14,939 nt of DNA. Source: Thermococci archaeon (GTDB lineage Archaea > Hadarchaeota > B88-G9). The stretch is taken from assembly GCA_003660555.1 (NCBI GenBank), contig QMUK01000026.1:1-14939 (forward strand). Direction: 5' to 3'. The first letter of the stretch is position 1. Every line of letters begins with the position of its first letter. The notes beneath the pieces were generated by a model. It saw only the letters and a list, made by a program, of their open reading frames with translations. It was not told the DNA's origin and ran no database searches. Below are positions 2,996 through 13,411 of the stretch, in pieces. The translations under genes and the position numbers were made by a program.

Positions 2996-3982
2996 ATGCT
3001 CGATCTTCCACCGAAAGTCTCCTCCCTCATGGTGAAAGTAGAGGAAGAGATAAAAAAAGCTGTGGGCGAGACTGAATTAGATTTTCTCTGGGAGAAGTCA
3101 CATTCCTTCTTATCCAAAGGCGGAAAAAGGGTGAGGCCACTGTTAGCTCTATTATCTCACTTAGTTTCTGGAGGAGGTAAGGAGAAAGAAGCTATAATAC
3201 TAGCGACGTCCATAGAGCTCGTTCACGCCGCATCCCTAATTCACGACGACATAATGGATGAAGCTAGGGAAAGGAGATGGGGCCCTTCTCTTCACTTAGA
3301 GGTCGGACTACGTAGGGCCGTTGTAATCGGGGACTACCTCTTTGTGAAAGCATTCACTCAAGCGAGTAAAATCGGAGGAAGAATACCAATGGAAATAGGG
3401 AGGGCTTGTTCGAGAATGGCTGAAGGGCAGCTACTTCAGGAGGAATACAGATTCTCAGAGATCTCTATCGAGAAGTACCTAGAGATCGTCAAGAGGAAGA
3501 CTTCTTCACTTTTCTCAGTAGCTTGCAAGTGCGGTGGATTACTCTCTCATAGGTTCGAAAGAGAGTTAGAATTATTTGGAGAGAAGTACGGAGTAATTTA
3601 TCAGATATGCGATGACGTTCTGGACGTAGTTGGATTGGAAGAATTCACCGGAAAGACTAGAGGATCTGACGTAAGAGGGGGGTTTTTTACAGCTCCATCT
3701 ATACTCTCGTTAGAGAGTCTGAGAGAAGCTGGTGATATGGAGAGGGCTAAGAGATTCTCCTCGATAGTTAAAAGTAGATGGAATACAGAAAGTGATGTGG
3801 AGTTCGCAATAAGGACTATGGTGGAAAGTGGAGGTGTAGATAAATCTCTAGATCTGTGTAGGGAGTACGTCTCACAAGCAATAAAGATAATATCTGAGCT
3901 TCCCAATAGCGAGTACAGGGAAGCTTTGGAGAAAATCACTTTGAATACCCTAGAGAGAACTAAGGAGTTGGCTGGGACATAA
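2996..3982 (+). CDS. Short/medium- or long-chain trans-polyprenyl diphosphate synthase (GGPP synthase family)
   Basis: Condenses isopentenyl diphosphate with an allylic diphosphate to make the isoprenoid chains of membrane lipids or quinones. Motifs over 328 residues: GGKRVRP (42-48, IPP binding), first aspartate-rich motif DDIMD (84-88), KTSSLF (168-173), second aspartate-rich motif DDVLD (216-220), and TGKTRGSD after it. Two oddities are visible. The fifth and fourth residues before the first motif are Ala79 and Ser80, where archaeal GGPP synthases typically carry a bulky Phe/Tyr at the fifth position, so products longer than C20 are possible. The usual GKxTxP lysine downstream is replaced, reading GGFFTAP. 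It is the first gene of a tight operon, ending 1 nt before the GGR-like gene. The family is certain; chain length is not. Confidence 0.92.
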   Translation: MLDLPPKVSSLMVKVEEEIKKAVGETELDFLWEKSHSFLSKGGKRVRPLLALLSHLVSGGGKEKEAIILATSIELVHAASLIHDDIMDEARERRWGPSLHLEVGLRRAVVIGDYLFVKAFTQASKIGGRIPMEIGRACSRMAEGQLLQEEYRFSEISIEKYLEIVKRKTSSLFSVACKCGGLLSHRFERELELFGEKYGVIYQICDDVLDVVGLEEFTGKTRGSDVRGGFFTAPSILSLESLREAGDMERAKRFSSIVKSRWNTESDVEFAIRTMVESGGVDKSLDLCREYVSQAIKIISELPNSEYREALEKITLNTLERTKELAGT

Positions 3983-3983
3983 A

Positions 3984-5072
3984 ATGAGTAGGAGAGAAGT
4001 AGTAATCGTTGGTGGGGGACCAGCTGGGCTAACTGCTGCTAGATTTTCTGCTGAAAGAGGGGCAGACACTCTTCTACTGGAGGCCAGAAGAGACTTCACA
4101 GAGAATCTCAGATGTGGGGAGTTCATACCATCTCTGGAGCAGATGAAAGAACTCTTCCCGAGAGCTGACATAGACGGCATATTGGATGAAGAAATGATTT
4201 CTCCATGCATATCTAGGAGAATAAGAGAGATAAGTGTTTTCTCACCTAGGGGTAGGGAATATTCAATAGACTTCGATGGAATTGTCCTAGAGAGAAGAAT
4301 ATTTGAGAAGGAATTAGCAATATCTGCATCTAAAGCTGGAGCAGAGATATTGCTTGGAAAACGTGTCCGAGAAGTTATACCTGAGAGAAGAGTGCTCAAA
4401 ATCGGTAGTGAGGAGATATCCTTTGAAGTGCTCATACTAGCGGATGGTCCATTCTCACTAGCTAGGAAGTTGGGATTCCCTACTCCCTCCGAGCTAACTC
4501 CTACAGTACAATACGAGGTCCCTGGAAAAAAGGACAGGGTAGAAATGTACTTGGGAAACAAGATAGCTCCCGGAGGGTATGCTTGGGTGATACCAAAGAG
4601 CAACTCTATTAACATCGGGCTTGGGGTTAGGTGGAAGAAGAATATGATGATGAATTTCTTGGAAAAGTTCAGAGAGAGAATGTGTGGAAATATTAGCCCA
4701 GTCTACTTCACTTCTTGGGTCGTTCCATCCGGAGGGCCAATACAGAGAACCTGCAACGACTTCTGCTTAGTGGTAGGCGATGCTGCAGGGCAAGTGATTC
4801 CTACAAACGGAGGAGGAATACCCACCTCATTAATTTGCGGTAGAATTGCTGGAGAGATTGCTAGTAGAAAGATTAGGGGGGAGAAAGATCTAGTGGAATA
4901 CGAAAAAGAATGGAGAAGGCAAATAGGAAGAGAGTTGGAGAATTCTCTAAGAGCTAGAGTACTGATAGATAGGTTTATGAGGTCTGACTTACTCATGGAA
5001 ACTCTGATGGCGGTCTTCGGATCTAGCGGTGTTGAAAAAGTATTGGAGTGTAAGCCTATTGGAGGGGCATGA
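3984..5072 (+). CDS. Geranylgeranyl reductase family FAD-dependent oxidoreductase
   Basis: A flavoprotein of the family that saturates geranylgeranyl chains of archaeal lipids. The 362-residue protein has an N-terminal Rossmann FAD site GGGPAG (10-15), a RCGE motif with Cys44 resembling the active-site cysteine region of geranylgeranyl reductases, ADG (153-155), the substrate-site motif GGYAWVIPK (197-205, matching the family's YxWxFPK), and the second FAD motif GDAAG followed by NGGGIP (265-280). It is somewhat short for the family. It starts 1 nt after the prenyl synthase stop codon, so the two enzymes are almost certainly coexpressed, which supports a lipid role. The exact substrate (digeranylgeranylglyceryl phosphate, free prenyl diphosphate, or a quinone tail) cannot be told from sequence. 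Confidence 0.9.
   Translation: MSRREVVIVGGGPAGLTAARFSAERGADTLLLEARRDFTENLRCGEFIPSLEQMKELFPRADIDGILDEEMISPCISRRIREISVFSPRGREYSIDFDGIVLERRIFEKELAISASKAGAEILLGKRVREVIPERRVLKIGSEEISFEVLILADGPFSLARKLGFPTPSELTPTVQYEVPGKKDRVEMYLGNKIAPGGYAWVIPKSNSINIGLGVRWKKNMMMNFLEKFRERMCGNISPVYFTSWVVPSGGPIQRTCNDFCLVVGDAAGQVIPTNGGGIPTSLICGRIAGEIASRKIRGEKDLVEYEKEWRRQIGRELENSLRARVLIDRFMRSDLLMETLMAVFGSSGVEKVLECKPIGGA
5061..5067 (+). promoter_or_regulatory. Ribosome binding site deciding the PAC2 TTG start
   Basis: GGAGGGG lies 6 nt before TTG 5074, inside the last codons of the GGR-like gene. It favours TTG 5074 over an upstream in-frame GTG at 5029. Confidence 0.7.
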
Positions 5073-5816: not shown

Positions 5817-6185
5817 TTGGAGCTTGTTGCTCTTACAGGATTATCTAGGTTTGTATTGGAGGACCTAATCAAACATAAATTAAGAGCAATAGAAATAGTT
5901 GGATTCAGGAATCTCACTGGTGCAATGGAGCTAAGAGAGGGAGACAACGTGTTCTTAACTCACATAGGCAGAGAGGAAATAAACATAGGGACCGAGGGAT
6001 TGATAGCAGAGGTAATCAAAAAGGAGCACAGTATGAGAAAGTTTCTGTCGCACTCAGAAACAGATGAGGTTGAAATTGAAACTGTGAGATTGAGGCTCAA
6101 ATACCTGTGCAGAGGAAGGATATCAGAAATAGAGCGTAGAGAAATGATAAGAGTTAAAGTTCTTTATCCCTCCCTCGTATGCTAG
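5817..6185 (+). CDS. DUF473-like conserved archaeal protein
   Basis: A 122-residue protein starting at TTG 5817, with a GGGGGTGGG-type ribosome site at 5802-5810. The opening VALTGLS, the IEIVGFRNLTGA phrase, GDNVFLTHI and the GTEGLIAEVI segment resemble the archaeal DUF473 family as I remember it. The function of that family is not known. The fold looks mostly beta with an N-terminal helix; there is no signal peptide or membrane segment. It lies 14 nt after the PAC2 gene and is likely translated from the same mRNA, making a shared process plausible. The last 32 nt overlap the convergent winged-helix gene. The gene is certain; the family call is moderate. Confidence 0.75.
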   Translation: MELVALTGLSRFVLEDLIKHKLRAIEIVGFRNLTGAMELREGDNVFLTHIGREEINIGTEGLIAEVIKKEHSMRKFLSHSETDEVEIETVRLRLKYLCRGRISEIERREMIRVKVLYPSLVC

Positions 6186-6783
6186 TCTTCAGAGTATAGA
6201 TAAACGGTCTCTCCCTTTCCAGAAACCTCCTACCCTCGGGGCCGAGCTCATATATAACTATCCCTTTGTTCTTCTTATATTTCCTGAAAAGGTTCAATTG
6301 CGTCCCCCAAGAAAGCAATACTCTAGCCTTAGCCTTATACGTCTCCTCAGACCAGCTAGCGTTGAACCAGTCTCTCAGGAATTCTCCCAGTTCCCCTATG
6401 TCCCTTCCACCCCCCTTTAGATAACTAGCTATTGCCCTGAATGGAGGATAAGAAAACACAACTTCTTGGAGAATTTTCTTTCTTCCCCAATCGGATGCTT
6501 TCAGAACTCTCATGCCGAGCTTAGTCGGAAAGTATCTATATCCCTTCTCTTTTTTCTCCCTCCCTATGAGGCCTAATTGCCAACATGCTTCCACGTAGCC
6601 TTGCACTGTACCCACACTGGAGTCTACTACCTCAGAAATTTTGGATATAGTATCGTGTCCATCTGCTATCCTTTTGAGAAACGATACTATCCCATCGACG
6701 CTATTAGCGCTGGGTATGGAGAAACCCCTTTCCAATACACCACCATCCCATCTAGTCTCGTTGTCCTTTTTATTCCTTCCCAT
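6154..6783 (-). CDS. Winged-helix DNA-binding protein of unknown role
   Basis: A 209-residue protein without membrane segments. After a short basic N-terminus, residues about 25-95 form a winged-helix-like unit: VDGIVSFLKRIADG, then SKISEVVDSSVGTVQGYVEA as a likely recognition helix, and YFPTKLGMRVL as the wing. A second all-helical segment (about 100-170), with R-K-x-I-x-x-x-V and PPFRAI, resembles the C-terminal domain associated with some archaeal ATPases. The arrangement LGLI...T.LG...R..I...V...PPFR occurs in several archaeal regulators. This resemblance is weak and from memory. It lies 86 nt downstream of the DUF354 gene on the same strand and may be cotranscribed. No good Shine-Dalgarno precedes ATG 6783. 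Targets are unknown. Confidence 0.7.
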   Translation of the reverse strand: MGRNKKDNETRWDGGVLERGFSIPSANSVDGIVSFLKRIADGHDTISKISEVVDSSVGTVQGYVEACWQLGLIGREKKEKGYRYFPTKLGMRVLKASDWGRKKILQEVVFSYPPFRAIASYLKGGGRDIGELGEFLRDWFNASWSEETYKAKARVLLSWGTQLNLFRKYKKNKGIVIYELGPEGRRFLERERPFIYTLKTSIRGRDKEL

Positions 6784-6868: not shown

Positions 6869-7825
6869 TCAGGTCAAGTGTTCCACTTCCTCTATTATTC
6901 TCGGTATTGGATTCTCCATGCTTTTAATAACACTTTCTGCTCTCTTCTTAAGTCTTCTTCTCTCCATGATAGTATTGACGAGTAAATCTTTTGTTAATCC
7001 CTCTGGAGTTATCTTCTTTATCAATCTCTTCGAAATCAATAACTTGGTCACTGAGGGGAAGTCCATCAACTCTACTGCTATATTAGGGACGCCCAATAGA
7101 GCTGCCTCTCTGTTCATAGTCCCTCCAGTCCCTATGAGGAGAGCTGAAGATGATATTAGCCTTATTCCATCTTCTAGTGTTTTTTCTAAATCCCTAGATA
7201 TTTCTAGAGGCCTATATCCACTTGGACATATCTTAACCAGTTTTTCTGAAGTTAATTTTCTCTTAGACTTGAAGTACTCTGCTTTTCTTGGTTCTGGCCT
7301 AATTATTATATTGTTTGTTATTTCTTCTGGAATTTCTTCTCCATAAACGTGAGCTAATTCGAATACCCCATTGAAAGTTCTGAATTCAATAGACTCGTAC
7401 TCGGAAAGCGACTCAGCTGTGACTTTTGGTGCTAATACTCTAGTAGATATGTTTAAAACTAGTTTGTTATGGGCACTAGCTAGTTCATTATCTACTAAGC
7501 ATAAAGACGGTATTTTCAGACCAAAAGCAACTCTAGCGGCTTCTGGAGAGTGTTTAAATATTAACACGTCAGGCTTCTCTCTGGAAATTAGCTTGGTCAA
7601 CTCAATGGCACGCTTGGTCCCTTCTAAGAGTTTGCTTCTGAGCGAAGATCCACCGTGTTTTCCCAAACTGATGAATTCTATTCCCTTTCGGTTCAACAAG
7701 TCCTCTAGAAATCCATACTTTCTGGCAGTTACCAGTATCTCGAAACCTTTATTCCTCAACTCTTGGATTACTTTGGAGAACAACTGGACTTGAGGTGAAT
7801 TGCTAACTTCTATCCAGACCTTCAT
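6869..7825 (-). CDS. DUF354 family protein (GT-B fold, glycosyltransferase/epimerase-like)
   Basis: A 318-residue cytosolic protein matching DUF354. Visible are the N-terminal MKVWIEVSNSPQV (most members have PHV where this has PQV), LVTAR, KHGGS, EKPDVLIFKHSPEAARVAFG, the VDNE acidic motif (111-114), and the sugar-nucleotide-site-like GTGGTMNREAALLGVP (232-247). The fold is related to UDP-GlcNAc 2-epimerases and GT-B glycosyltransferases; the substrate is not known. ATG 7825 is preceded by GGGGAG with 6-nt spacing. The neighbourhood includes a true UDP-GlcNAc 2-epimerase about 1.5 kb away, which suggests surface or protein glycan metabolism (inference). It is divergent from the AAA+ gene, with a shared promoter region containing an inverted repeat. 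Confidence 0.88.
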   Translation of the reverse strand: MKVWIEVSNSPQVQLFSKVIQELRNKGFEILVTARKYGFLEDLLNRKGIEFISLGKHGGSSLRSKLLEGTKRAIELTKLISREKPDVLIFKHSPEAARVAFGLKIPSLCLVDNELASAHNKLVLNISTRVLAPKVTAESLSEYESIEFRTFNGVFELAHVYGEEIPEEITNNIIIRPEPRKAEYFKSKRKLTSEKLVKICPSGYRPLEISRDLEKTLEDGIRLISSSALLIGTGGTMNREAALLGVPNIAVELMDFPSVTKLLISKRLIKKITPEGLTKDLLVNTIMERRRLKKRAESVIKSMENPIPRIIEEVEHLT

Positions 7826-7857
7826 GGTATCTCCCCGCGCTATTGTGTGGGTGTATT

Positions 7858-7902
7858 GAATGGGTTCAGGTCGATACCTTTATATTCAAAGTGAACCCAT
7901 TC
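7858..7902. repeat. Perfect 11-bp inverted repeat bracketing a TATA box (candidate operator)
   Basis: GAATGGGTTCA at 7858-7868 and TGAACCCATTC at 7892-7902 are exact reverse complements separated by 23 nt. The TATA-like CTTTATATTC (7878-7887) sits in the spacer, and the half-site centres are 34 bp apart. A protein bound to both arms would cover the BRE/TATA region. Since the TATA element can be read on both strands (reverse GAATATAAAG), it could control DUF354 and the ATPase gene together. Confidence 0.65.
7878..7887 (+). promoter_or_regulatory. TATA box of the AAA+ ATPase gene (possibly bidirectional)
   Basis: CTTTATATTC predicts plus-strand transcription from about 7908, 40 nt before ATG 7950. 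This excludes the longer frame starting at 7860. On the opposite strand the same element would start DUF354 mRNA near 7857, about 32 nt before its ATG and ahead of its ribosome site. Confidence 0.5.
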
Positions 7903-7949
7903 TCCTAGGGACAGTTTTGGAGAGAGATTCCCCCATCCTCAGTCTGATC

Positions 7950-9035
7950 ATGAACGAATACGAGGAGAAAGTAAAAAAAGATTACTTTTCAAAATTCGGG
8001 TGGAAAAGAGATCCATTCATACTGAGAGGCGTGCTACCACACCCTAGCTTATATGTGAGACGAAAGGACGACCACCAAAGACTAGGACCGTTCATAGAAG
8101 CTTTGAAAGAAGGGCAGTCCGTGTCCCTAGTTGTAGGACCTGTAGGTTCAGGGAAAAGCACTCTACTGAAGCTTTTCGACTATGAGTTAGAGAGGGTCCT
8201 AGGGAATTGCAGAGTAGTGTTCATAGAACAACCAGGATTTACCCAAGAACAGTTCATGAAGCTAGTACTTTCCAGAATAAATAGCGGAATGGCTAATGGA
8301 GACAAGGTCTCTCTCTATGAGAATCTCAAGAATTGGGTGAACGGTAGCAGGGATAGGAGACTAATTTTGATGATAGATGAGGCACCGGAGATTCCAGAGG
8401 AGACTGGTAGACTGATCAGGAACTTGTCCGATATGGAGAACATATCCTTCATATTGTCAGGAGTACCAGACAAGATAGCCAAATCCATGGAGAAAATGCA
8501 GCCCCTTCTGGACAGGAAGGGGAGTGAGTATGAAGTGAAACCCTTCGAGAGTCCAGAGCTAACTTGGGAGCTCATAGCCAGAAGAATATGTTATGCCAAA
8601 GGAGATTTCTCAGAACTGGATATAAGACCATTTACTGATGAAGCCATTGAGAAAATACATGAAATGAGTGGAGGTTCTCCAAGAGAAGCCCTAAGGATTG
8701 CCCACGATGCTCTTAGAAGGGCTATGGTGTCTAAGAACTATGAGATTGACGAGCAATTAGTAGCTGAAAGCGGAAGATCTGTTATAGTTACCGAGGGGGA
8801 GATACTAAGAGAGTTCTCTGAGGTCCAAAGAAAAATAATAACTCTTCTCAGGAATAAGCCGGAGGGGTTACTCATAAGGGAGATATATGAGTCCCTTGGG
8901 ATTACTCACAACACAGCTAAAACGTCGTTGAAGAGACTCAGAAACAAAGGGGTCGTGAGGGTTTGTAGAAGGAAGGGAAGAGCTTATATATACTGTCTCA
9001 GCGAGGAGTGGAGACGAAGACTAATGAAAGGCTAA
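7950..9035 (+). CDS. AAA+ ATPase with C-terminal winged helix (ExeA/Orc-like, role unknown)
   Basis: A 361-residue protein from ATG 7950. N-terminal YFSKFGWKRDPF resembles the opening of ExeA/TniB-type and Orc-like ATPases. It is followed by Walker A GPVGSGKST (about 63-71), Walker B LILMIDEAPE (140-149), and a sensor-1-like FILSGVP. A helical lid includes MSGGSPREALRIAHDALR (sensor-2 Arg). Then comes a C-terminal winged helix (about 290-350) with LLIREIYESLGITHNTAKTSLKRLRNKG as turn and recognition helix. It lacks the length and full signature of canonical Orc1/Cdc6, so I do not call an initiator. A TTG at 7917 is an alternative start. Being divergent from DUF354 across an operator-like repeat, it may regulate itself. 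Its stop codon overlaps that of the convergent membrane-protein gene. Confidence 0.85.
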   Translation: MNEYEEKVKKDYFSKFGWKRDPFILRGVLPHPSLYVRRKDDHQRLGPFIEALKEGQSVSLVVGPVGSGKSTLLKLFDYELERVLGNCRVVFIEQPGFTQEQFMKLVLSRINSGMANGDKVSLYENLKNWVNGSRDRRLILMIDEAPEIPEETGRLIRNLSDMENISFILSGVPDKIAKSMEKMQPLLDRKGSEYEVKPFESPELTWELIARRICYAKGDFSELDIRPFTDEAIEKIHEMSGGSPREALRIAHDALRRAMVSKNYEIDEQLVAESGRSVIVTEGEILREFSEVQRKIITLLRNKPEGLLIREIYESLGITHNTAKTSLKRLRNKGVVRVCRRKGRAYIYCLSEEWRRRLMKG

Positions 9036-9274
9036 TCTCCTTTTGTTTCTTCTTTCAGCTCTGGGATTTCCTCTATTGGTTTTATGGAAAACATTATCCA
9101 TCCTAGCCATGCCAAGATGCCCATTGCTACCAGAAATCCTATCGAAACCACTACCTTGATGGCTATGTCCCCTCTTCCAGAGAACATCGCCCATAAGTAG
9201 GCTATGGAGAGTATCACAGACAAGAGAAGTATTATTAGACCTAAGAGCCTACCCCTCTCCAACTGGGACCCCAA
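9032..9274 (-). CDS. Small two-helix membrane protein, hypothetical
   Basis: An 80-residue protein with two clear membrane helices (about residues 10-30 and 41-65) joined by a short polar loop SGRGDIAIK, and a charged acidic tail ELKEETKGD. I do not recognise the family. The start used is TTG 9274; TTG 9262 is an alternative giving 76 residues. A strong TATA box at 9293-9300 on the minus strand predicts transcription from about 9270, so the 9262 start is quite possible with a very short leader. The stop (TAG) shares bases 9032-9035 with the TAA of the convergent AAA+ gene. The promoter and hydrophobic pattern make it a real gene; a link to the ATPase is only positional. Confidence 0.7.
   Translation of the reverse strand: MGSQLERGRLLGLIILLLSVILSIAYLWAMFSGRGDIAIKVVVSIGFLVAMGILAWLGWIMFSIKPIEEIPELKEETKGD
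9039..9056 (+). terminator. Possible oligo-T terminator after the AAA+ gene
   Basis: A T-rich tract (CCTTTTGTTTCTTCTTTC) begins 4 nt after the ATPase stop codon, as in archaeal intrinsic termination. It also encodes the tail of the opposite-strand gene, so the composition may have a coding cause. Confidence 0.3.
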
Positions 9275-9292
9275 GGATAGTTTCCAACTTAG

Positions 9293-9300
9293 TATTTAAA
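9293..9300 (-). promoter_or_regulatory. TATA box of the small membrane protein gene
   Basis: The minus strand reads TTTAAATA, a near-consensus archaeal TATA box 22-34 bp before the candidate TTG starts. On the plus strand it lies immediately before the UDP-GlcNAc 2-epimerase gene, too close to serve that gene's start. The epimerase promoter therefore remains unidentified. Confidence 0.65.
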
Positions 9301-9310
9301 GGTGAGGGTA

Positions 9311-10558
9311 TTGGTCGAGAGGGTTTGCCTAGTAGTGGGAGCCAGACCGAATTTCGTGAAGGCCTATCCATTACTCAGAGCCTTCTCTGAGGAGGAAATG
9401 GAGGTATCTCTAGTTAATACAGGACAACACTACGACGCTGAGCTATGCGAAGTGTTTTTCGATGAGTTGAGGATAAGAGACTTCGTGAGAGAAATAAACT
9501 TGAAAGTAGGCTCGGGGAGTCATGCTGAACAGACCTCCAGATGCATCATCCAAATGGAGAGAGTTCTCCAAAGAGAGAAACCGGATGTCACTGTCGTGAT
9601 CGGAGACGTGAATAGTACGTTAGCTGGAGCCTTGGCATCCATAAAGACAGGAATACCTGTTGCGCATGTGGAAGCGGGATACAGATCATTTGATCTTGGG
9701 ATGCCAGAAGAGGTAAATAGAATTCTAGTGGATCACATTTCGCAATTATTGTTTTCTCCGACAGAGAGCTCTACCATGAACCTAATGATTGAGGGTATCC
9801 CTGAAGACAGAATTCGTTTTTCAGGCAACGTTTTGATAGACTCATTGGTTTCCGTATGTGAGAATCTCGGAATAACTCCAAAGAATATTGATAAGGAAGA
9901 TTACGCTGTCCTGACTATTCACAGACCTAAGAACGTAGACGATCCAAATAGGCTCAGGGAGATAGTGGATGCTGCTAAAGAAATTCCGATTAGGGTTGTC
10001 TTCCCAATACACCCTAGGACTAGAGAACGTTGTGCTGAATTCCGAGTAGATCTAGAAGGCATAGAAGTGAGGTATCCCATGGGATATATGGAGTTTATTT
10101 CACTGCTAGCTAGAGCCAAGTTAGTTTTAACTGATTCTGGTGGGATTCAAGAGGAGGCTTTATTCCTAGGGACCCCGTGTTTAACTTTAAGAGAAAACAC
10201 TGAGAGAATAGAGACCCTGATCTCTGGAGGAAACCTCTTAGTTGGTGCTAACAGGGAAAGGATAATAAGAGTTGTCTCAGAATTACTAGAGGATGAGAAA
10301 AAGTACGAGTCCATGGTCAAGGCTGAAGTTCCAGATAGGTGGGATGGAAGAGCCTCCAAGAGAATTGCTTCAGAACTCGGTGAGAGTGAAATGAAGATTC
10401 AGAGCTATAACTTCATGAAGATGGGCATACCACAATACATGCTAGTAGAGAAGAGAGAACTATCCAAGGAGGACGAAGTAATAGCTAAGTTCTCCAGAAA
10501 CCGTCTCTCCATTTATTCATTCGACACTGCCCTCGTGAGGAGGTGGAGAGCCCATTGA
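9311..10558 (+). CDS. wecB: UDP-N-acetylglucosamine 2-epimerase (non-hydrolysing) with C-terminal extension
   Basis: Interconverts UDP-GlcNAc and UDP-ManNAc for glycan synthesis in the cytosol. Motifs (numbered from GTG 9302): GARPNFVK at 13-20, Asp102 in GDVNST, Glu124 in HVEAG, MPEEVNR at 134-140, His207 in IHRPKN, His237 in FPIHPR, and GGIQEEALFLG (280-290) with the following LRENTER. All the expected catalytic acids and histidines are present. I chose TTG 9311 (415 residues), which has GGTGA 5 nt upstream; GTG 9302 is possible. The family normally ends soon after the RASKRIASEL helix, but about 55 further residues, rich in basic and aromatic positions, continue in frame. It overlaps the PfkB kinase start by 4 nt. 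Confidence 0.92.
   Translation: MVERVCLVVGARPNFVKAYPLLRAFSEEEMEVSLVNTGQHYDAELCEVFFDELRIRDFVREINLKVGSGSHAEQTSRCIIQMERVLQREKPDVTVVIGDVNSTLAGALASIKTGIPVAHVEAGYRSFDLGMPEEVNRILVDHISQLLFSPTESSTMNLMIEGIPEDRIRFSGNVLIDSLVSVCENLGITPKNIDKEDYAVLTIHRPKNVDDPNRLREIVDAAKEIPIRVVFPIHPRTRERCAEFRVDLEGIEVRYPMGYMEFISLLARAKLVLTDSGGIQEEALFLGTPCLTLRENTERIETLISGGNLLVGANRERIIRVVSELLEDEKKYESMVKAEVPDRWDGRASKRIASELGESEMKIQSYNFMKMGIPQYMLVEKRELSKEDEVIAKFSRNRLSIYSFDTALVRRWRAH
10539..10545 (+). promoter_or_regulatory. Ribosome binding site deciding the PfkB TTG start
   Basis: GGAGGTG is a strong Shine-Dalgarno 9 nt before TTG 10555. The in-frame GTG at 10543 lies inside this element and is therefore an unlikely start. Confidence 0.65.
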
Positions 10559-11898: not shown

Positions 11899-12801
11899 TT
11901 GAAGCTCGTTGAACTACCAATGGGTCTTAGACGGTACGTCAAAGACATATCTAGAGAGCTAGGCGAGGAAATAATATTCTTGGGAGATCCAGTATATGGA
12001 TCTTGTCATCTCTATGAGGAAATTGCTGATTTTCTCGGTTTAGAGGAGATAATACACTATTCACACACCCCCTTTTATACTCCGAACAAGAGAGTTGTGT
12101 TTAAAGTGAACCAACTGAGTTACTCAGAGGATGTCTTCTCCATAATAGAAGAAGAGATAAGGTCTGAGAGTGGTAAAGTTGGTGTGATTACAAACGCCCA
12201 ATTTCTGAAGTTGGCATACGAAGTTAAGAAGAGATTCAAGGACCGCGTGGAATTAAAGAGGGGTAGGCTCGCTCGAGGACTTGGGCAAGTCTTAGGTTGT
12301 GACTTCTCAGCCGCTAGAGTGGAATCGAGAAAATTGATCTTTCTGGGAGACGGACTCTTCCATCCCATAGGAGCTAGGATATCCACGGGAAAGGAAGTGT
12401 TGTCATTGAATCCGGTTACCTGTGAACAGATAAATGTGGAAAAGGAGGCTGAAAGGTTCCTAAAGATGAGATTCCACTCTATATTCAGAGCAAAGAGGTC
12501 TAATAGTTTTGGGGTAATACTAGGAGCTATGAGGGGCCAGTTTAGAATGAGGGACTTTCAAATGTCCGTTAGGTTGCTCCAAGAAGAGGGAAAAGAGGTC
12601 TTCAGGATTGTCTCTAAGGTAATAAGCCCTGAAATAATTGAAGAGTTTGGATTGGATTGCTACGTTATATGCGCCTGTCCCAGAATAGTGGACGAACAAC
12701 CTAGATTTAAGAAACCATTGATCACTCCAAGAGAATTAGAAATAGCCTTTGGTAGGAGAGACGAATATGTCATGGATGAGATCTCAGAGGTTGAGTGGTA
12801 G
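11899..12801 (+). CDS. dph2: 2-(3-amino-3-carboxypropyl)histidine synthase (diphthamide biosynthesis)
   Basis: A radical-SAM-like [4Fe-4S] enzyme that transfers the aminocarboxypropyl group of SAM to a histidine of elongation factor aEF2, the first step of diphthamide formation. Numbered from TTG 11899 (300 residues), the three cluster cysteines are visible as YGSC (Cys36), VLGCDFSAAR (Cys134) and CACPRIVDE (Cys260). Other family landmarks are IIHYSHTPF and GDGLFHPIGA. It is the first gene of an information-processing operon and overlaps the downstream methylase by 35 nt. It is slightly shorter than many archaeal Dph2 proteins but keeps all three repeat domains. No clear TATA box precedes it. 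Confidence 0.92.
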   Translation: MKLVELPMGLRRYVKDISRELGEEIIFLGDPVYGSCHLYEEIADFLGLEEIIHYSHTPFYTPNKRVVFKVNQLSYSEDVFSIIEEEIRSESGKVGVITNAQFLKLAYEVKKRFKDRVELKRGRLARGLGQVLGCDFSAARVESRKLIFLGDGLFHPIGARISTGKEVLSLNPVTCEQINVEKEAERFLKMRFHSIFRAKRSNSFGVILGAMRGQFRMRDFQMSVRLLQEEGKEVFRIVSKVISPEIIEEFGLDCYVICACPRIVDEQPRFKKPLITPRELEIAFGRRDEYVMDEISEVEW

Positions 12802-13411
12802 GAAACTAGAAATTATACTTGAGGAGTTGGAGAAAAAAGAGAATCCAAATCTCATACTGGAACAATATCCTACTCCACCACGGATCGCTTCTGAAATGCT
12901 AATGCTAGCTTTTAACAGAGGAGACATAGAAGGAAAGATAGTACATGATTTGGGATGTGGTACTGGGATATTAGCCATTGGTGCCGCTCTCTTGGGCGCT
13001 GAGAAAGTAATAGGTGTTGACGTAGACCCTGTATCTGTGGAAATAGCTAGGAGGAATTCCAAGAGACTTGGTGTTGAAGTCGAGTGGATAGTATCACCAA
13101 TAGAAGAGTATTTCGGTAAAGGGGACACTGTACTGCAGAATCCTCCGTTTGGTGTTCGGAAAAAGGGTGCAGACATGTTATTTCTGATGAAAGCATTGGA
13201 AGTTGGAGAAGTCATTTATTCTCTCCATAAAGCTGGAAATAGAAATTTCATAGAGGGCAAAATAGGTAGCAAGGGAAAGGTATTAAACGTTATACCAATG
13301 ATGTTCCAGATGAGGAGGGTGTTTCCCTTCCATAGAGAGGAGATACACGAGTTCCCAGTAGAGCTCTACGTCATAAGGAGGACTAGAGATGAAGAAAAAA
13401 GACGTAGTTAG
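12767..13411 (+). CDS. METTL5-like SAM-dependent RNA methyltransferase (COG2263)
   Basis: A class I methyltransferase of the archaeal/eukaryotic METTL5 group, whose eukaryotic member makes N6-methyladenosine in small-subunit rRNA. The 214-residue protein shows the family's N-terminal LEQYPTPP (about 31-38), SAM motif I DLGCGTG (61-67), the acidic VDVDP after strand 2, and the catalytic NPPFG (125-129). I chose ATG 12767, with GGAGAG 6 nt upstream; ATG 12776 is possible. It overlaps dph2 by 35 nt and csl4 by 23 nt, so it is translated within the same operon. The rRNA target is inferred from the family. Confidence 0.9.
   Translation: MSWMRSQRLSGRKLEIILEELEKKENPNLILEQYPTPPRIASEMLMLAFNRGDIEGKIVHDLGCGTGILAIGAALLGAEKVIGVDVDPVSVEIARRNSKRLGVEVEWIVSPIEEYFGKGDTVLQNPPFGVRKKGADMLFLMKALEVGEVIYSLHKAGNRNFIEGKIGSKGKVLNVIPMMFQMRRVFPFHREEIHEFPVELYVIRRTRDEEKRRS

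Follow-up and report, generated by a model that had tools for sequence, protein, structure and literature searches.

The 124-bp gap (7826-7949) between a DUF354 gene and a divergently transcribed AAA+ ATPase gene contains an exact 11-bp inverted repeat around the core promoter of the ATPase gene. The best explanation, which we hold as evenly balanced between true and false, is a real ATPase core promoter lying inside a chance repeat rather than a purpose-built pair of operator arms; we rate this slightly above an operator. The window, i.e., the whole 14,939-nt stretch analysed, is contig C26 of an archaeal genome (G000; 1.3 Mb, 150 contigs). Distant homologues of the ATPase carry a conserved GTGAA box at their own genes, a result that is firmer and more interesting than the window repeat. 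One weak copy of this box may be present at the window site.

The two arms, GAATGGGTTCA (7858-7868, + strand) and TGAACCCATTC (7892-7902, + strand), are separated by a 23-nt spacer, with 34-35 bp (~3.3 turns) between arm centres. Pairing stops at 11 bp, with a mismatch at the next base pair both outward and inward. The TATA box CTTTATATTC (7878-7887) is enclosed nearly symmetrically. The initial annotation described this perfect repeat around a TATA box and named its neighbours, and both descriptions are correct: on one side lies the GT-B-like DUF354 gene (6869-7825, - strand; PF04007, E 1e-53), and on the other the gene for a 361-residue AAA+ ATPase with a C-terminal winged helix (7950-9035, + strand; AAA_22, E 3e-16). 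The ATPase start is ATG 7950, from which homologues align; an in-frame ATG at 7860 was rejected, as it lies upstream of the TATA box and homologues begin at 7950.

A BRE/TATA motif trained on 290 upstream regions of the window's genome (consensus ~AAAGTTTATAT) has starts that peak genome-wide 40-45 nt before start codons. Its match at 7875-7888 on the + strand (TACCTTTATATTCA) scores 7.8 bits, against a median of 6.4 for best matches, so that the TATA box is, as had been claimed, a credible archaeal promoter element, and the site belongs to the archaeal BRE/TATA core promoters. It sits 75 nt before the ATG, farther than the usual 40-45 nt. Nothing comparable was found on the minus strand at 7875-7888. 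Because the motif is directional and fits the + strand only, the TATA box is assigned to the ATPase gene, and the proposal of a bidirectional element common to both genes is rejected. The best minus-strand match (AACCCATTCAATAC, 7866 down to 7853; 4.0 bits, weak) overlaps the left arm, 41 nt upstream of the DUF354 start, and a possible DUF354 ribosome-binding site, GGGGAG, occupies 7831-7836 on that strand. By the -26/27 rule for archaeal transcription start (PMC4158304), ATPase transcription would begin at ~7909, which would place the right arm between the TATA box and the start. On the chance reading, TBP and TFB would bind the + strand element at 7875-7888, and transcription would proceed from near 7909 with a leader of ~40 nt ahead of the ATG; the repeat around the promoter would most likely be a sequence coincidence, and its second arm would have no role.

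The same predicted start bears on whether the repeat acts as a hairpin, in RNA or as a cruciform, which is highly improbable. The segment 7850-7910 does fold as a single strand (-10.7 kcal/mol, z -4.2), but so would any 11-bp perfect repeat; with the predicted start at ~7909, downstream of the two arms, neither would be part of the ATPase message, and Rfam gave no match.

The repeat had been called very unlikely by chance, a claim that holds for its own gap but fails genome-wide. Maximal perfect inverted repeats with spacers of 3-40 were counted in 835 kb of the window's genome, gene calls outside the window being those of a simple ORF caller. Eight repeats have arms of at least 11 bp, versus 14.4 expected in the 835 kb under an order-2 Markov model, and three of the eight are the paired repeats at the probable replication origin described below. 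Chance predicts 0.0015 such repeats in 124 bp and 0.98 in 80 kb of intergenic sequence; this site is the only intergenic repeat of such size in the sampled DNA, the origin-side paired repeat aside. The repeat is therefore striking in its own gap (~0.0015) and ordinary across the genome (~1 intergenic expected, one found). Nor do the 131 TATA-bearing promoters show an excess of TATA-bracketing repeats (arms of at least 8 bp: 0 versus ~1.4 expected). The chance reading is favoured by these counts, by the lack of half-site enrichment, and by a 23-nt spacer unlike those of the archaeal operators TACT-N3-AGTA, TATCAC-N5-GTGATA and TTCGTA-N4-TACGAA (PMC3729527, PMC4158304). Counting against it are the near-symmetrical enclosure of the TATA box and the length of the repeat, exceeded in just one of 340 promoters, the origin-side one.

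The initial annotation proposed a genome scan for further half-site copies, and this revealed no regulon: with up to two mismatches the half-site has 189/182 matches, in keeping with 176/198 for the reversed control, and the sole other exact copy lies within a glutamate dehydrogenase gene. Promoters contain none at 0 or 1 mismatch; at up to two they contain 14, versus 7.4 (sd 3.6) for letter-permuted words, a count in which divergent gaps are partly counted twice. These data bear on whether the repeat is an operator for a different regulator, either the 209-residue winged-helix protein encoded at 6154-6783 or one acting in trans, which would recognise two inverted TGAA-N4-TTCA sites flanking the TATA box. 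Each arm is indeed nearly palindromic (TGAATGGGTTCA, TGAACCCATTCT), the left arm plus base 7857 (TGAATGGGTTCA) being a TGAA-N4-TTCA palindrome in its own right, and the winged-helix gene lies just past DUF354, with weak matches to DUF7226, EarA and Csa3-type HTH models. However, the genome's intergenic DNA shows no enrichment of TGAA-N4-TTCA (a single copy, ranking 145th among 256 half-sites), and with no half-site regulon found, such an operator seems quite improbable. Within the window the TGAA-N4-TTCA word occurs three times (3345-3356, 6285-6296 and 7857-7868), versus 0.5 expected, and 4 of 200 shuffles reach three; this excess and the near-palindromic arms count against the chance reading.

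The only close relative found, NJEE01000097 from 'Candidatus Bathyarchaeota archaeon ex4484_205', has an identical site. It is 99.7-100% identical to the window over most blocks and hence the same species, so the identity of the site says nothing on selection. A same-species public assembly (L034) lacks many short stretches of the window (4536-4754, 6548-6739, 8528-8597, 9200-9296, 10286-10484, 11907-12097, 12552-12751 and 13146-13217), and genes intact in the window are broken or shortened there; the gaps are probably assembly collapses. Within the phylum, homologues of the ATPase reach no more than 38% identity, no arms were found ahead of the ATPase gene in the other genomes, and among the 28 genomes examined no other has DUF354. 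Viral contigs contained neither the repeat element nor a relative of the ATPase.

Homologues of the ATPase (E <= 1e-25) occur in 25 of 394 genomes, most of them full-length, and those with the winged helix are found in distant archaeal families; in the phylum of G040, 27 of 34 genomes have a homologue. The most over-represented 5-mer in the homologues' own promoters is GTGAA/TTCAC (54 versus 8.6 expected, in 10 of 11 genera). Among winged-helix homologues, such a box is present at the ATPase gene itself in 15 of 16 genera, and two or more in 12; the mean is 2.6 per promoter, against 0.31 for 138 control promoters of those genomes. Eleven genus representatives carry 34 boxes versus 3.4 in controls, a total that none of 100,000 draws attained; the genomes used to find the motif core overlap with those used to test it, although the control promoters and helix-less homologues are independent. 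Distances between boxes in the same orientation cluster at 10-12, 19-24, 30-33 and 40-42 bp, corresponding to one to four helix turns. The extended box reads TTCAYGTGAA with AA/TT flanks, and about ten exact TTCACGTGAA palindromes are arrayed in ~1 kb ahead of the ATPase gene in both G254 (contig C4, L150:1234-2214) and G271 (contig C54, L107:109-996). Homologues without the winged helix average 0.5 boxes per promoter, about background, and the recognition helix hardly varies among the box-bearing proteins, reading [HN]A[LIV]RxxNNxLxR[LM] (HALRAVNNILRRL). Because boxes, helical spacing, arrays, helix-less background and conserved recognition helix combine, self-binding is the simplest reading of these sequences in the box-bearing clade, and autoregulation by such ATPases is strongly suggested in the distant homologues.

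Other genes adjoin the boxes in some genomes. In G040 (L148, 2597-3184) the divergent neighbour of the ATPase gene is a 2'-5' RNA ligase/thpR-like gene, and MRCF-type starts resembling the one in G040 occur upstream of homologues in other genera; the box-bearing gap may be common to several genera. Further GTGAA clusters lie ahead of other genes in G113 (contig C11, L202, 171479) and G073 (contig C8; L186, 23958 and L187, 47296); the genes are one next to a TctA-like membrane protein and polB near orc1, and a tsaD/Kae1-like gene. A small regulon of the AAA+ winged-helix protein is possible in this genus.

In an AlphaFold2 model of the window ATPase (mean pLDDT 86), the C-terminal winged helix spans approximately residues 284-352, with helices at 291-302, 309-316 and 320-332 followed by a two-strand wing. 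The fold is closest to Orc1/Cdc6, RuvB and MuB, the best matches being archaeal and eukaryotic Orc1/Cdc6 (7jgr_G, 2qby, 1w5t). An ORC-CDC6-like Pfam model matches the protein weakly, below cut-off. The Orc1/Cdc6 model TIGR02928 has no match on the window contig among the matches listed for the genome, weak ones included, and exceeds its cut-off on contigs C27 and C92; by this model the ATPase does not qualify as an Orc1/Cdc6 initiator. Its helix region, HNTAKTSLKRLRNKG, is 8 residues shorter than that of the box-bearing proteins and lacks the near-invariant HALRAVNNILRRL. Within its phylum, the protein clusters with the helix-less homologues, and the sequence it binds may be a different one.

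These features weigh on the proposal, made in the initial annotation, that the ATPase regulates its own gene, which has backing in the distant homologues, with GTGAA boxes at their own genes; in the window protein the matching recognition helix is missing. In its fuller form, the winged helix would bind a GTGAA-type box in the right arm (ATTCAAAGTGAAC) and, more weakly, an inverted copy in the left arm, thereby blocking RNA polymerase; the nucleotide state would set oligomerisation and hence repression, and DUF354 may be co-regulated, the left arm overlapping its weak TATA box. We regard this operator as a tentative second choice. It draws on the frequency of the boxes in winged-helix homologues, their helical spacing and their background level where the winged helix is absent, and on precedent, as autorepression adjoining the BRE/TATA is established for MsvR (PMC3729527) and autorepression is noted for TrmB-family and Lrs14 regulators (PMC4158304). 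In the gap itself (7826-7949), a box motif built from the distant homologues without the window has its best match in the right arm (TTCAAAGTGAACCCA, 7885-7899, + strand; 9.0 bits) and its second in the left (ATCGACCTGAACCCA, 7861-7875, - strand; a weak 3.7 bits), and the 13-mer ATTCAAAGTGAAC (7884-7896) recurs in the promoter of the G227 homologue. That the top two matches fall on the two arms counts against the chance reading, but the best score is reached by 3.3% of shuffles and 3.8% of the genome's own 340 promoters (p ~0.035), which is weak given the many things examined. Also against autoregulation in the window are the 8-residue deletion and the helix-less grouping, and the ATPase promoter has a single GTGAA, at -59 from the ATG, when 29% of the genome's own promoters have at least one. 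On two points, one box instead of at least two and a different recognition helix, the site does not fit the GTGAA-box autoregulated family.

Taken alone, the window site would extend the list of archaeal promoters that may carry an operator. Of wider importance is the box, which is conserved in at least 15 archaeal genera at an AAA+ winged-helix gene that is uncharacterised and offers a DNA target on which this family, whose function is unknown, can be tested directly. The likeness of the box to bacterial parS and the 1-kb arrays in two genomes raise the question of a role in chromosome segregation or replication in archaea without a recognisable ParB; none of 12 genomes tested, G254 and G271 included, has a ParB above the family cut-off. 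A broader synthesis, which we think unlikely, is that Orc1/Cdc6-fold AAA+ winged-helix proteins, as a family widespread in archaea, regulate their own genes and perhaps also organise DNA close by. They would act through GTGAA boxes in helical phase, whose full palindrome TTCACGTGAA is the parS core, in genomes lacking a recognisable ParB, and the window repeat would be a diverged single-pair form of that operator.

Three known systems offer comparisons. The archaeal autoregulated repressors MsvR, Lrs14 and TrmB/Tgr resemble the window site in having divergent or self-controlled promoters, boxes at the BRE/TATA or between TATA and start, and inverted repeats (PMC3729527, PMC4158304). However, their spacers are 3-10 bp and their sites occur at several promoters, whereas the window repeat has a 23-bp spacer and occurs once in the genome. 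Orc1/Cdc6 with its ORB boxes is similar in the modelled fold, an AAA+ domain plus winged helix, and in the repeated boxes beside the gene in distant homologues, but the window's genome has a separate, true Orc1/Cdc6 with ORB-like CCAGTGGA boxes beside it. These boxes lie on contig C27 (L077, 10610-11121), adjoining orc1/cdc6 (9465-10535), with a 41-bp unit in two identical copies, both of them 12-bp inverted repeats; the region is the probable replication origin of the genome, and a CRISPR-like reading of its paired repeats was rejected given the adjacent orc1/cdc6 and ORB-like boxes. An origin function for the GTGAA arrays is not supported, as 16 of 17 genomes have Orc1/Cdc6 at another location, GC skew along the 394-kb G113 contig has no turning point or minimum at the ATPase gene, and several TTCACGTGAA copies near orc1 fall within coding genes. 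The third system is bacterial parS, TGTTTCACGTGAAACA (PMC7022226). It differs in that the homologues' boxes lie in the promoter region of a gene encoding an AAA+ winged-helix protein, and the window has no exact copy, but the parS core is TTCACGTGAA, the very box of the distant homologues that is arrayed in G254 and G271 (PMC7022226).
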